Assembly (NCBI GenBank): GCA_903944895.1
Contig: CAJATL010000335.1
Span: 1-64,000 of the forward strand
Direction: 5' to 3'
From: an uncultured Bacteroidota bacterium
Lineage (GTDB): Bacteria; Bacteroidota; Bacteroidia; Bacteroidales; 4484-276
DNA length: 64,000 nucleotides
Made by a program: the position numbers and the translations under genes. The notes beneath the pieces were generated by a model, which ran no database searches, was not told the DNA's origin, and was given only the letters and a program-made list of their open reading frames with translations. Below, piece after piece: positions 49,393 to 54,482 of the stretch. Position 1 is the first letter of the stretch; the number at the start of each line of letters is the position of its first letter.

Positions 49393-49514
49393 GGAAAATC
49401 TCAAAAAACAAATCTCAAAACTCAGATTACCGCGGAGGCACGGAGAACACGGAGAAGAAAATCACAAAACTCAAAACTCAAATTACAAAAGGACAAAAAG
49501 TAAAAGTAATGTCG

Positions 49515-49640
49515 CTTTATGATCTTTGGTTTGCTGGAAGTTATCTTGCAATCGCCGGAAATCATCTTACGGTGACGAAATGTCATCTTTGGGTCATCGG
49601 AAGTCATCTGTCGGTGGTTCAAAGTCTTCTTTCACTTGTT
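49515..49640. repeat. 21-bp imperfect tandem repeat, six units
   Basis: ggaagttatcttgcaatcgcc / ggaaatcatcttacggtgacg / aaatgtcatctttgggtcatc / ggaagtcatctgtcggtggtt, etc. Confidence 0.8.
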
Positions 49641-49811
49641 CAATCCCGGCTTTTATACAAATTATATGAATGCCAGGATTATTGTTGATTTGGGGGTGGG
49701 AAAGAAGGTGGGGGAAACGGCGAGGAAGTAGGGGTGGTAACAGAGGGGTATAGGTTGAATATAACATTTGAAATAAGGTGTGTAATTTCACCCATTTTTT
49801 AGAAAATTTTA

Positions 49812-50606
49812 TTATAATTTCGGTTCAATTCTTACAATAATATTCAAATTTCCTCTTTGGCCACACAAATCGTTTTCAATTCCAGTGGGATTTTCTATCC
49901 ATCCGTCAGGGTCATAAACAAAACAAAATAAAGTGTCAATATCTGGATATACCTTATATCTATCGATGTCAATAATTAATTGTTCACCCAATTCTTTAGA
50001 TTTTAAAGTAGATCGGGATTTCTTTATTTCAATTGCAATATTTTCATTTTTTAAGACAAAATCAATTCTTGAATTTCCGCCGGCGTATAGTGGAACATAA
50101 GATTCTGGTCTAATGTCATCAAAAAATAGGCGCAATAGTGCATGAAATAAATCTTGTACATCATATTCATCAATAACATTAAGAGTCTCCTTGTCATTGT
50201 GCCTCTTCCTTAATTGTCTTGCAACATTATGAAATCTACTTGTAATAATATTTACAACACTAAAAGGATTTGAATTGGTTGAGTCAACTGTTTTCTCTGT
50301 TTCCAATATAGAAATATAGCTGATTGCTTTTTCAACTTCAAACAACAACAATTCCAACTGGCTTTTATTATAAACAGTGTAAGACTTGTGTAATCCTTGA
50401 ACTGTCTTAGTAATTGGACTAAGTGTTCCAATAAGATCATCAAATATTTCCTGGTCAACCTGTTTTAGATTACTAACAATTTGTTTAAAGTCTACAAACA
50501 ATCTTTCATATTCAGGTTTAGGATGATCATCCTCTCGATTTTTGCGGAATTCCAACAGTTTTTCATTTATTAATCTGAGTTTCGATTTCAATAATGCAAT
50601 TTTCAT
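49812..50606 (-). CDS. PD-(D/E)XK nuclease, DpnII/MboI-like REase domain
   Basis: SRIDFVLKNENIAIEIKKSR catalytic core and GEQLIIDIDRYKVYPDIDTLFCFVYDPDGWIENPTGIENDL. Confidence 0.82.
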   Translation of the reverse strand: MKIALLKSKLRLINEKLLEFRKNREDDHPKPEYERLFVDFKQIVSNLKQVDQEIFDDLIGTLSPITKTVQGLHKSYTVYNKSQLELLLFEVEKAISYISILETEKTVDSTNSNPFSVVNIITSRFHNVARQLRKRHNDKETLNVIDEYDVQDLFHALLRLFFDDIRPESYVPLYAGGNSRIDFVLKNENIAIEIKKSRSTLKSKELGEQLIIDIDRYKVYPDIDTLFCFVYDPDGWIENPTGIENDLCGQRGNLNIIVRIEPKL

Positions 50607-50640
50607 AATTATTTAGGTTAATTCTGCAATGTCCTATAAC

Positions 50641-52755
50641 TTATTTAGTATTGGTTTTGTCTTTTACTATGTAAAGAAAATTTCCAATAAACCCATTTTC
50701 CTCTGTGGAAACAAAGTATTTTTGTTCAATTTCCACAAAGCCGTCACAATTCAGTTCTTTTAGATTTTTTATCCAATCTGGGTTATCTACCCTAGCCCCA
50801 TTAAGGTTTGTGCCGCTAAGGTTAGTACCGCTAAAGACGGTATTGCGAAGATTAGCCCCACTAAGGTTAGCCTGGTGAAGATTAGCCTTGGTAAAATTAA
50901 CTTGGTTAAAGTCAAAATCATGAAGGTCAGACCCGCTAAGGTCAGCACCACTTAGATTAGCACCACGAAGGTCAGCACCATGAAGGTCCGTGGAAACATG
51001 GACAAGAGGCACATCATAATCATAATTATCATCATTTTCAAAATCGGGATTATAACGATAATACTTGAGATCTTTATAGGAATAATTATTAAGTTTGGCA
51101 TTGCTAAGATCAGCATCTTTAAGTATTGCACCACTTAGGTTAGTACCATTCAGGTTCGAACCACTTAGGTTAGCACTACGAAAATTTGCATTATGTAAAT
51201 CAGAAAAAGCAAGGTTAGCATCAGTAAGATTTGCAAGTTTTAGGTCAGCATTATGAAGGTCAGCCTGGCGGAGAACAGCCCCGCTCATGTCAGCTCCGCA
51301 TAAATTTGAGTTACTTAGATTAGCAAAACTAAGATTAGTTTCGCGCGGTTCCATAAAATAATGATTCCAATAGCCACCAATTTTAAGGTCAACATCACTA
51401 AGGTTGGCACCACTTAGATTTGCACTGTTTAAAACAACACCACATAAGTTTGCGCCGCGAAGGTTAGCACCACATAAGTTAGCACCGCGAAGGTTCGCAA
51501 TATTCATATCAATACCGTGAAGGTCAACAGCCTTGAGGATGGCATCAGTTAAATCCGCCCCTATTAATTTAACACCACTAAGGTTAGTCTCACGTAGGTC
51601 AGCGCCGATTAGTTTTGCCCCGCTTAAATCAGAATTACTAAGGTCAGCATTATGGAAATCAGCACCAACCAGGTCGGTATACTTGAGGTTTGAATTTAAT
51701 ATATTAGCACCTTGTAGGTTAACATTTATTAGTGTAGCACTTTGTAGGTTTGTGTTTTTTAAGCGTGCATCATTTAAGTTAGCACCACTAAGATTAACTT
51801 TACGAAAGTCTTGATCACTGTATGTCCTTTGATCCTCATGAATATATCCAATGGATAGGTTGGCACGATTTAGATTAGCACCACTAAGATTAGCACCACT
51901 TAAATTAGCTCCGCAAAGATTAGCACCATGTAAGTCAGCACCGATTAGTTTTGCGTCGCATAGGTTAGCAAAGAAAAAATTTCCCTTGTTTAGGTCAGCC
52001 TCACTAAGATTGGACATACTTAGGTCTGAACGACTAAGGTTAGTTCTCTTACGCAAAACCTTGTTAAAGCATAGTCTAGCACCAGTTAGATCTGTACCAC
52101 TTAAGGAGGCATCACTAAGGTCTGCACCACTAAAATCTGCACCCCTAAGGTCCGCACCGCGAAGATCAGCACGTATGAGTTTAGCACCACAAAGCAATGT
52201 AGCAACAATGTTAGTATCGCTCTCGTAAATACGACGACGGTTAAACTCGTCATCACTTAGGTAATATTGGCTGAGGTCGGCAAAGGTAAGGTTAGAATCA
52301 CAAAGGTTAGCTTCAATAAGGTTAGCACCGCAAAGGTCTGCATGACTTATATTAGTGCCATTTAGGTTGGCACTTCTAAGGAATGACATTATTAGGTTAA
52401 TACCTTGAAGATCATTATGACTAAGATTAGTACCCTCAAGGTTAGCATTGTTCATGATAGCAAATTTAAGTTTTGTAGTGCTAAGATCAACGAACGCAAG
52501 GTTAGCCCAACTCAGGTCAGAAGCCCTTAGGTCAGCACCACTTAAGAAAGCATTTAGAAGATTTGCACCGCAAAGATTGGTACTATATAAGTTAATGCCG
52601 CGTAGATTAGACCCACTTAAAATAGCACCACGAAGGTTTGCATTATGTAAGTCAGTACCATGAAGGTCAACATCGCTCAAATCAGCATAATTTAAGTCCA
52701 TTTTTTCTACAGAGCCTTTTTTTAATCGTTCAATTAGCTTCTCTTTGTCCATCAC
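50641..52755 (-). CDS. giant pentapeptide-repeat protein
   Basis: 704 aa dominated by A(D/N)LxG pentapeptides (e.g. GANLSGANLSGANLNRANL). Confidence 0.95.
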   Translation of the reverse strand: MMDKEKLIERLKKGSVEKMDLNYADLSDVDLHGTDLHNANLRGAILSGSNLRGINLYSTNLCGANLLNAFLSGADLRASDLSWANLAFVDLSTTKLKFAIMNNANLEGTNLSHNDLQGINLIMSFLRSANLNGTNISHADLCGANLIEANLCDSNLTFADLSQYYLSDDEFNRRRIYESDTNIVATLLCGAKLIRADLRGADLRGADFSGADLSDASLSGTDLTGARLCFNKVLRKRTNLSRSDLSMSNLSEADLNKGNFFFANLCDAKLIGADLHGANLCGANLSGANLSGANLNRANLSIGYIHEDQRTYSDQDFRKVNLSGANLNDARLKNTNLQSATLINVNLQGANILNSNLKYTDLVGADFHNADLSNSDLSGAKLIGADLRETNLSGVKLIGADLTDAILKAVDLHGIDMNIANLRGANLCGANLRGANLCGVVLNSANLSGANLSDVDLKIGGYWNHYFMEPRETNLSFANLSNSNLCGADMSGAVLRQADLHNADLKLANLTDANLAFSDLHNANFRSANLSGSNLNGTNLSGAILKDADLSNAKLNNYSYKDLKYYRYNPDFENDDNYDYDVPLVHVSTDLHGADLRGANLSGADLSGSDLHDFDFNQVNFTKANLHQANLSGANLRNTVFSGTNLSGTNLNGARVDNPDWIKNLKELNCDGFVEIEQKYFVSTEENGFIGNFLYIVKDKTNTK

Positions 52756-52938
52756 TTTATTAATTATTTGGTTTCATAATATCGTATCTCATTTAGCAGA
52801 ACGTTTTCTTTGGTTGTGCAGAACGTTTATCGTTTTATCTATAGTCCCCAAACAGGGTTTCAAAGATAGAAAAAGAATATAGGGGTTAGTTGTTTATTAT
52901 GATGATTTTATCAGATTTACCCTTACAAACGTACCCAT

Positions 52939-54018
52939 TTATTTTTTCAAAACCACAAAATAATTCTTCTTAAACTTTAAAGCCACGTTAACCAGCGCAA
53001 TCATCACCGGCACTTCGACCAATGGGCCGATAACTGCGGTAAAGGCTTCACCGGAATTAATACCGAAAACAGCAATGGCCACGGCAATGGCCAGCTCGAA
53101 ATTGTTGCTGGCAGCAGTAAACGAAAGGGTTGTTGCCTGTTCGTAGGTGGCGCCGGCTTTTTTACTCATCAGAAACGACAGCAGGAACATCACCAAAAAG
53201 TAGATGATGAGCGGGATGGCTATCAAAATTACGTCAAAAGGCAGTTTAACGATATATTCGCCTTTAAGCGAAAACATCACCAGAATGGTAAACAACAATG
53301 CTATCAGTGTAAGCGGACTGATTTTGGGAATAAACCTGCTGTGATACCATTCTTTGCTTTTTACCCGGATGAGGATAAAACGTGTGAGAAAGCCTGCGAT
53401 GAAAGGGATTCCGAGGTAAATAAAAACGCTTTCGGCAATTTGGCCGATGGTGATTTTTTCGACTACGCTGCTCGTGGGAACGCCAAACCAGCCGGGAAGT
53501 ATCGCAATAAAAAGGTAGGCGTAAACCGAGAAAAGCAAAACCTGGAAAATGGAATTAAACGCCACCAGTCCGGCGCAATATTCGGTGTCGCCTTTGGCAA
53601 GGTCGTTCCACACAATGACCATGGCGATACAGCGCGCCAGGCCAATCAGGATAATTCCGTACATGTAGGGCAAGTTTGCATTGTTTTCGCCCGGGAAAAT
53701 TTTGAAGAAAACAATGGCCAGCGTAAACATCAAAACCGGCCCGATAAGCCAGTTTTGAACGAGCGAAAGGCCAAGAATTTTAAAGTTACCGAAAACGCCG
53801 CCCAACTCTTCGTATTTTACTTTGGCTAAGGGCGGGTACATCATCAGGATAAGCCCGATGGCGATGGGGATGTTGGTGGTGCTTTCGGGTGAGGATTTTA
53901 ACGATTCCCAGAAACCAACAATGCCCGGGAAGAAATATCCTGAGAAAACGCCAATAAACATGGCCAGAAAAATCCACAGGGTTAAATACCTGTCGAGGAA
54001 TTTTAGTCTCTTTTTCAT
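52939..54018 (-). CDS. acr3: arsenite efflux transporter ACR3
   Basis: Ten-[18 protein letters not shown] and [20 protein letters not shown]. Confidence 0.95.
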
Positions 54019-54042: not shown

Positions 54043-54482
54043 AATTTGAAAATTTGAAAATGAAATAACGAAACAATTTAACCAAAAGATAGTAGACGAA
54101 AGAATGGAGCATTAATGGGATTTTGAGGAGCTGATTATTTTTGTGAGTATTTTTATGAGTTCTCCCGCTTTTTCCAAAAGTTCTTCGTTAAAAGGATATG
54201 ATGGTGAATGTTTACACAACAAAAGCCAGTATTCGGTTTCATCGGCTTCTTTTGCTGCAATTTTCATTTTATGTATGAAGTCAGCTTTACTTTCAGCATT
54301 CTGAGCCTCTCTGATATTTGCACCAATTGATGTTCCTGATTTTAATAATTGCCTGGCAATTACATACTTTCTATGTTCCTCCAGTAATTCTGAATAGTCA
54401 ATAATATCAAGTGCAAACTCAAGTGTGAGCTTTACAATTACATTTTCTTTATCGCTTCTCATAATTTTCAAATTTTCAAATT
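54043..54482. repeat. 19-bp perfect inverted repeats flanking the four-helix-bundle gene
   Basis: AATTTGAAAATTTGAAAAT (54043-54061) and ATTTTCAAATTTTCAAATT (54464-54482). Confidence 0.85.
54112..54462 (-). CDS. four helix bundle protein (S23/IVP family)
   Basis: LLKSGTSIGANIREAQNAESKADFIHKMKIAAKEADETEYWL. Confidence 0.92.
   Translation of the reverse strand: MRSDKENVIVKLTLEFALDIIDYSELLEEHRKYVIARQLLKSGTSIGANIREAQNAESKADFIHKMKIAAKEADETEYWLLLCKHSPSYPFNEELLEKAGELIKILTKIISSSKSH

Follow-up and report, generated by a model that had tools for sequence, protein, structure and literature searches.

A bAgaN-type nuclease gene adjoins a long pentapeptide-repeat gene in a putative variable slot behind an ars cluster of an uncultured Bacteroidota bacterium

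EcbAgaN is the abortive-infection DNase of long-B Argonaute systems: once its Argonaute recognises an invader, the enzyme breaks down genomic DNA and the cell dies. Expressed alone, it has little effect on viability and is not toxic, and its D-EVK motif is essential (PMC10620215). Pentapeptide repeats have been described as modules of predicted conflict systems, either fused or forming superstructures (PMC7159879, PMC10853773), and pentapeptide-repeat proteins (PRPs) of the Qnr/MfpA type have been proposed to act as DNA mimics (PMC7159879). These two themes meet in a 64,000-nucleotide stretch of DNA, hereafter the window, from an uncultured Bacteroidota bacterium (assembly GCA_903944895.1, contig CAJATL010000335.1, positions 1 to 64,000), in which a relative of EcbAgaN is encoded next to a long PRP. 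A first-pass annotation had interpreted the two genes as a defence or toxin/immunity unit, in which a DNA-mimicking PRP restrains or targets a DpnII/MboI-like nuclease. The locus is laid out as follows.

49421..52938, no strand assigned: variable slot for cargo genes, with the hpd genes on one side and ACR3 on the other, delimited by the ends of homology to a genome of the same genus (G687)
49812..50606, minus strand: nuclease, 264 aa, comprising a helical N-terminal region and a DpnII-MboI PD-(D/E)XK domain (PF18742, PADLOC, EcbAgaN profile match, structure model)
50607..50640, minus strand: intergenic gap from the PRP stop to the nuclease start, exactly 34 bp as read from the sequence
50641..52752, minus strand: PRP, 703 aa, approximately 120 units (PF00805; register analysis)

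The arrangement described by the first-pass annotation, a same-strand pair with 34 bp between the open reading frames, is reproduced exactly, with the PRP frame (50641..52755) upstream of the nuclease frame. The 704 residues it gave the PRP count from a GTG at 52755; the adjacent ATG at 52752 is the likely start, yielding 703 residues, such that the description of a long repeat protein stands while the word "giant" is generous. The register analysis also recovers each of the quoted non-repeat insertions and the non-repeat C-terminus. The pair of reading frames, their domains and the insertions are not due to chance.

The nuclease matches the DpnII-MboI family (PF18742) with 175.5 bits (E 6.5e-52) across positions 2-150 of the 150 in the domain, the curated cut-off being 27 bits. 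It can be divided into three elements.

49818..50258, minus strand: DpnII-MboI nuclease domain, residues 117-263 (Pfam boundaries)
50259..50606, minus strand: variable, all-helical N-terminal region, residues 1-116 (poorly conserved in the alignment; helices in the model)
50022..50063, minus strand: catalytic motif D182...E193-x-K195 (invariant alignment columns)

D182, E193 and K195 are invariant among the nuclease homologues, in both a 15-row and a 17-row alignment, and this D...E-x-K arrangement is the signature of PD-(D/E)XK nucleases, with the active site intact. In PADLOC, the nuclease scores best against Helical-REase models associated with Argonaute, of which Aga_Helical-REase (E 2.1e-24) is matched over the C-terminal part of the model only. 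By sequence, the only informative relative of solved structure is EcbAgaN itself (PDB 23wq; E 0.0021 from the single sequence, and 4.7e-11 with a profile). The identification of a DpnII/MboI-like nuclease is supported by a score far above the cut-off, intact catalytic residues and kinship to bAgaN. In the structure model (mean pLDDT 83), the nuclease domain is predicted with confidence and the N-terminal region is helical. Foldseek searches of this model against the PDB and viral structures returned no match at E <= 0.001; the top matches were the nuclease folds of Can2, Nt.BspD6I and Avs4, all below significance and consistent only. The helical N-terminal region is probably a trigger or dimerisation module. 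It does not match the candidate defence family PDC-S35, which matches the equivalent region (residues 1-107) of a relative carried by a filamentous prophage.

The window nuclease resembles EcbAgaN, the effector of long-B Argonaute nuclease (BPAN) systems, in having a homologous C-terminal PD-(D/E)XK domain, the D-ExK motif, and a separate N-terminal domain ahead of it. However, it has 264 residues rather than 390, its N-terminal region has no sequence match, and the locus has no Argonaute gene. Of the components of BPAN, the bAgaN-type nuclease domain is present and the adjacent long-B pAgo is absent, the neighbours instead being the PRP, ACR3 and hpd genes. The likeness to DpnII/MboI type II restriction-modification (R-M) lies in the Pfam name of the nuclease domain, whereas no methyltransferase is encoded among the genes adjacent to the nuclease. 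Solitary PF18742 nucleases of plasmids and filamentous prophages share the length of approximately 264 aa and the two-part layout, and are as much as about 58% identical across the nuclease domain. These have no PRP neighbour, and the window protein diverges from them in its N-terminal region.

Matches to the window nuclease occur in 208 plasmid records, many of them from proteins of the same layout of approximately 264 aa, and solitary homologues are carried by plasmids, a filamentous prophage and an integrating element. The prophage, which has zot and gspD-like genes, carries the homologue as an accessory gene (L027 2635-8274; also L038 and L039), and a DNA match to this gene is present in 257 of 5426 E. 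coli genomes. The homologue in the integrating element adjoins AbiE; another adjoins an Abi protein gene, a third is near BREX-5 pglX, and a fourth near a KAP NTPase. A further homologue follows a TPR-HEPN protein gene inside a type I R-M locus, and yet another, itself solitary, is 0.4 kb from a complete pAgo-bAgaN pair. Such relatives look like a putative defence nuclease that is mobile and mostly encoded by a single gene, and the window protein would be a new member of this known kind. Scanning viral contigs with the single nuclease sequence found no relative. Within the host's own order, the nuclease was found by sequence in one of 295 genomes, that being its own, and any PF18742 domain in two of the 295.

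Two of these loci have features of their own. The solitary nuclease beside the pAgo-bAgaN pair is on the Shewanella plasmid pSA70-2 (L010 5659-10184), where the Argonaute of the pair is annotated as "lipase chaperone". In the type I R-M locus (L002 4117-6573), the LA2681-like TPR-HEPN gene ends 15 bp before the nuclease homologue, with the R-M genes adjoining, making this a different candidate pairing of a repeat protein with a nuclease.

The PRP matches the Pentapeptide family (PF00805) with 452.9 bits (E 1.7e-139). Its unit consensus is A-N/D-L-S-G, and its blocks of units are parted by insertions, with a further short one at residues 230-236 in addition to those below (register analysis).

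52213..52272, minus strand: insertion 1, SQYYLSDDEFNRRRIYESDT, residues ~161-180 (register analysis)
51805..51855, minus strand: insertion 2, SIGYIHEDQRTYSDQDF, residues ~300-316 (register analysis)
51340..51384, minus strand: insertion 3, KIGGYWNHYFMEPRE, residues 457-471 (register analysis)
50992..51084, minus strand: insertion 4, YSYKDLKYYRYNPDFENDDNYDYDVPLVHVS, residues 557-587 (register analysis)
50644..50766, minus strand: non-repeat C-terminal cap, 41 aa (register analysis; helix and beta hairpin in a low-confidence model)

A single-sequence AlphaFold model of the PRP has a mean pLDDT of 48. The protein shares the pentapeptide-repeat solenoid with Qnr and MfpA, but these have about 200 residues to its 703, and it misses both curated cut-offs (145 against 240 bits for Qnr, and 141 against 360 for MfpA) and has no strong acidic character: its net charge at pH 7 is about -21 over 703 residues, with solenoid faces near neutral. 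NCBIfam scores for HetL and Alr5209 exceed their cut-offs, and were discounted as evidence of membership because a repeat of 120 units inflates whole-protein scores. PRPs are common, with pentapeptide matches in 2246 plasmid records. This PRP was not found in 60 relatives. Searches with its tail drew a blank among plasmids and viral contigs, and 118 genomes of the class yielded just two weak matches. One of these (L068, Bacteroidota) is to a PRP that looks membrane-anchored and carries a similar DW...L...G...Y cap; its 3-kb neighbourhood contains no nuclease reading frame. Hence the cap is a PRP feature of wider occurrence, and not an adaptor specific to the nuclease.

The cassette sits directly after an ars gene cluster that ends in an ACR3/SBF transporter, which is upstream in the cassette's reading direction; hpd-type glycyl-radical genes lie beyond the nuclease on the other strand. 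At the DNA level, homology to G687 ends at position 49420 towards the hpd genes and at 52939 towards ACR3. In G687, whose ACR3 protein is 98% identical to that of the window, the gene for ACR3 is immediately followed by a type II restriction endonuclease (REase_II, E 1.8e-85) and a methyltransferase (MTase_II, E 1.6e-40), in the same position as the window cassette (contig C474, L064 3050-4392). This contig is short and ends inside the methyltransferase gene, so the other border of the slot falls outside it and the two flanks are on different short contigs. The homology stops on both sides, and other genes are present in G687; thus the space between ACR3 and the hpd genes is variable. From these comparisons, it appears to be a newly noticed defence slot, an ars-linked hotspot with putative defence genes in both genomes. 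Proximity to defence islands, which the first-pass annotation had raised, is therefore borne out by the R-M pair in one relative, but not by a scan of ten window proteins on the far side, in which no further known defence gene was detected. Nothing that would explain an integration site, be it a terminator, a tRNA or an Rfam family, was found, and inverted repeats around the cassette were set aside as they look like chance or repeat-derived matches.

Both cassette genes are rare, and their third codon positions are rich in A and T. Their GC3 values are 0.23 and 0.29, against 0.33-0.58 in the other genes checked, with the single exception of a small IVP gene at 54112-54471 (0.28). That the two genes are tightly spaced, have no clear second promoter and are both low in GC3 favours their joint arrival, and they likely share one transcript, with the PRP leading. 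Candidate regulatory elements lie between ACR3 and the PRP start.

52796..52828, no strand assigned: exact 11-bp direct repeat GCAGAACGTTT in two copies 22 bp apart, ahead of the PRP start (sequence)
52861..52868, minus strand: TATCTTTG, candidate -7 promoter element (match to TAnnTTTG)

The repeat GCAGAACGTTT has only these two copies in the window, and the paired pattern arose in none of 100 shuffles, making a possible operator. The second element fits the Bacteroidota -7 consensus TAnnTTTG, and is a candidate only. No promoter of the nuclease's own was clearly recognised, the consensus scan giving chance-level matches only in this region.

The pairing was not repeated elsewhere. No PRP reading frame was found near the other nucleases at any of 35 non-redundant loci (41 loci in all), with flanks usually scanned over 4-6 kb a side, and less than 1.5 kb for some loci; as a positive control, the same detector recovers the window PRP. 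By the rule of three, this puts the pairing rate below 3/35, or about 9%, at approximately 95% confidence. The co-occurrence across genomes that the first-pass annotation had envisaged thus fails in the samples searched, where adjacency alone is supported; the PRP and nuclease are unproven as one system, and cannot yet be called one.

How the two genes relate is consequently a matter of weighing several explanations. They might constitute a two-gene defence system, in which the solenoid, with its lineage-specific insertions, binds a phage component as sensor or scaffold and then activates the adjacent DNase, in the place of Argonaute. The order of the genes, with the PRP first on the same strand and a 34-bp gap, their joint absence from relatives and their common low GC3 all point this way, as does the pairing of the catalytic domain elsewhere with a separate sensor, a Piwi protein, and the superstructure-forming or fused roles of pentapeptide repeats in predicted conflict systems (PMC7159879, PMC10853773). 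Yet no PRP accompanies the nuclease at the 35 other loci, a PRP with this tail was found in neither plasmids nor viral contigs, and the PRP is missing from 60 relatives, leaving the pairing to a single genome; such a system is a tentative and rather unlikely proposition. Its fullest version, a new two-component immune system in which a PRP solenoid, and not an Argonaute, cyclic nucleotide or NTPase, senses phage and unleashes a bAgaN-like DNase, we regard as distinctly unlikely. Alternatively, a hotspot may have taken up two unrelated cargo genes next to each other, with another role for the PRP (e.g. envelope, chromosome or topoisomerase-related). This is a realistic possibility that falls short of an even chance, as slot content differs between the two genomes of one genus, PRPs are common on plasmids, and the cap recurs in the apparently membrane-anchored PRP of L068, which has no nuclease beside it, but the tight spacing, the low GC3 common to both genes and the want of a clear second promoter speak against it.

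The original proposal, that the PRP imitates DNA and blocks the nuclease as an immunity protein or antitoxin until displaced, is consistent with the proposed mimicry of Qnr/MfpA-type PRPs (PMC7159879), and with a gene order fitting an antitoxin-toxin pair. However, a mildly acidic solenoid with near-neutral faces is weak for a DNA mimic, the Qnr and MfpA cut-offs are missed, homologous nucleases are stably carried without a PRP on many plasmids and prophages, and EcbAgaN alone barely affects viability (PMC10620215). No restraint of the nuclease seems needed, because homologues live without a PRP and EcbAgaN alone is harmless, and we consider this mechanism highly improbable. What survives of the proposed defence or toxin/immunity unit is a defence-type DNase with an intact site, in a slot that holds R-M genes in G687; a paired unit beyond adjacency does not.

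The explanation we favour, with moderate confidence, is that the cassette is accessory defence cargo in a variable slot behind the ars cluster, with the DNase active as a single protein and the PRP not an obligatory partner. The C-terminal bAgaN-type DpnII-MboI PD-(D/E)XK domain would be the DNase effector, gated by the protein's own helical N-terminal region, most likely through triggering or dimerisation; relatives would be able to persist as single genes because of this gating. The nuclease would be expected to stay quiet in uninfected cells, and on infection to degrade DNA non-specifically, the destruction of DNA, probably with death of the cell, stopping the phage. The defence function, this DNA degradation, the N-terminal gating and the shared transcript are inferred. 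The PRP would be operonic cargo whose role here, if any, is most likely that of a scaffold or recognition surface, and not an inhibitor. Its dismissal as a partner may be wrong, as 34-bp same-strand spacing resembles a functional operon, and if the pair is functional, it would give a sensor role in bacterial immunity to pentapeptide-repeat solenoids, whose roles are mostly unknown.

If the nuclease alone matters, the locus adds one more carrier to a family of defence nucleases that is widespread and poorly named. Solitary DpnII-MboI nucleases carry the label "malate dehydrogenase" in many public plasmids (L008, L011, L072 and others), which looks like a propagated misannotation, and hides the family in these records. 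Within the window's ars cluster, the low-GC3 gene at 54112-54471 encodes a four-helix protein of the 23S rRNA intervening-sequence type (PF05635); it lies between the transporter and arsenate reductase genes, and does not align with the matching stretch of G687.
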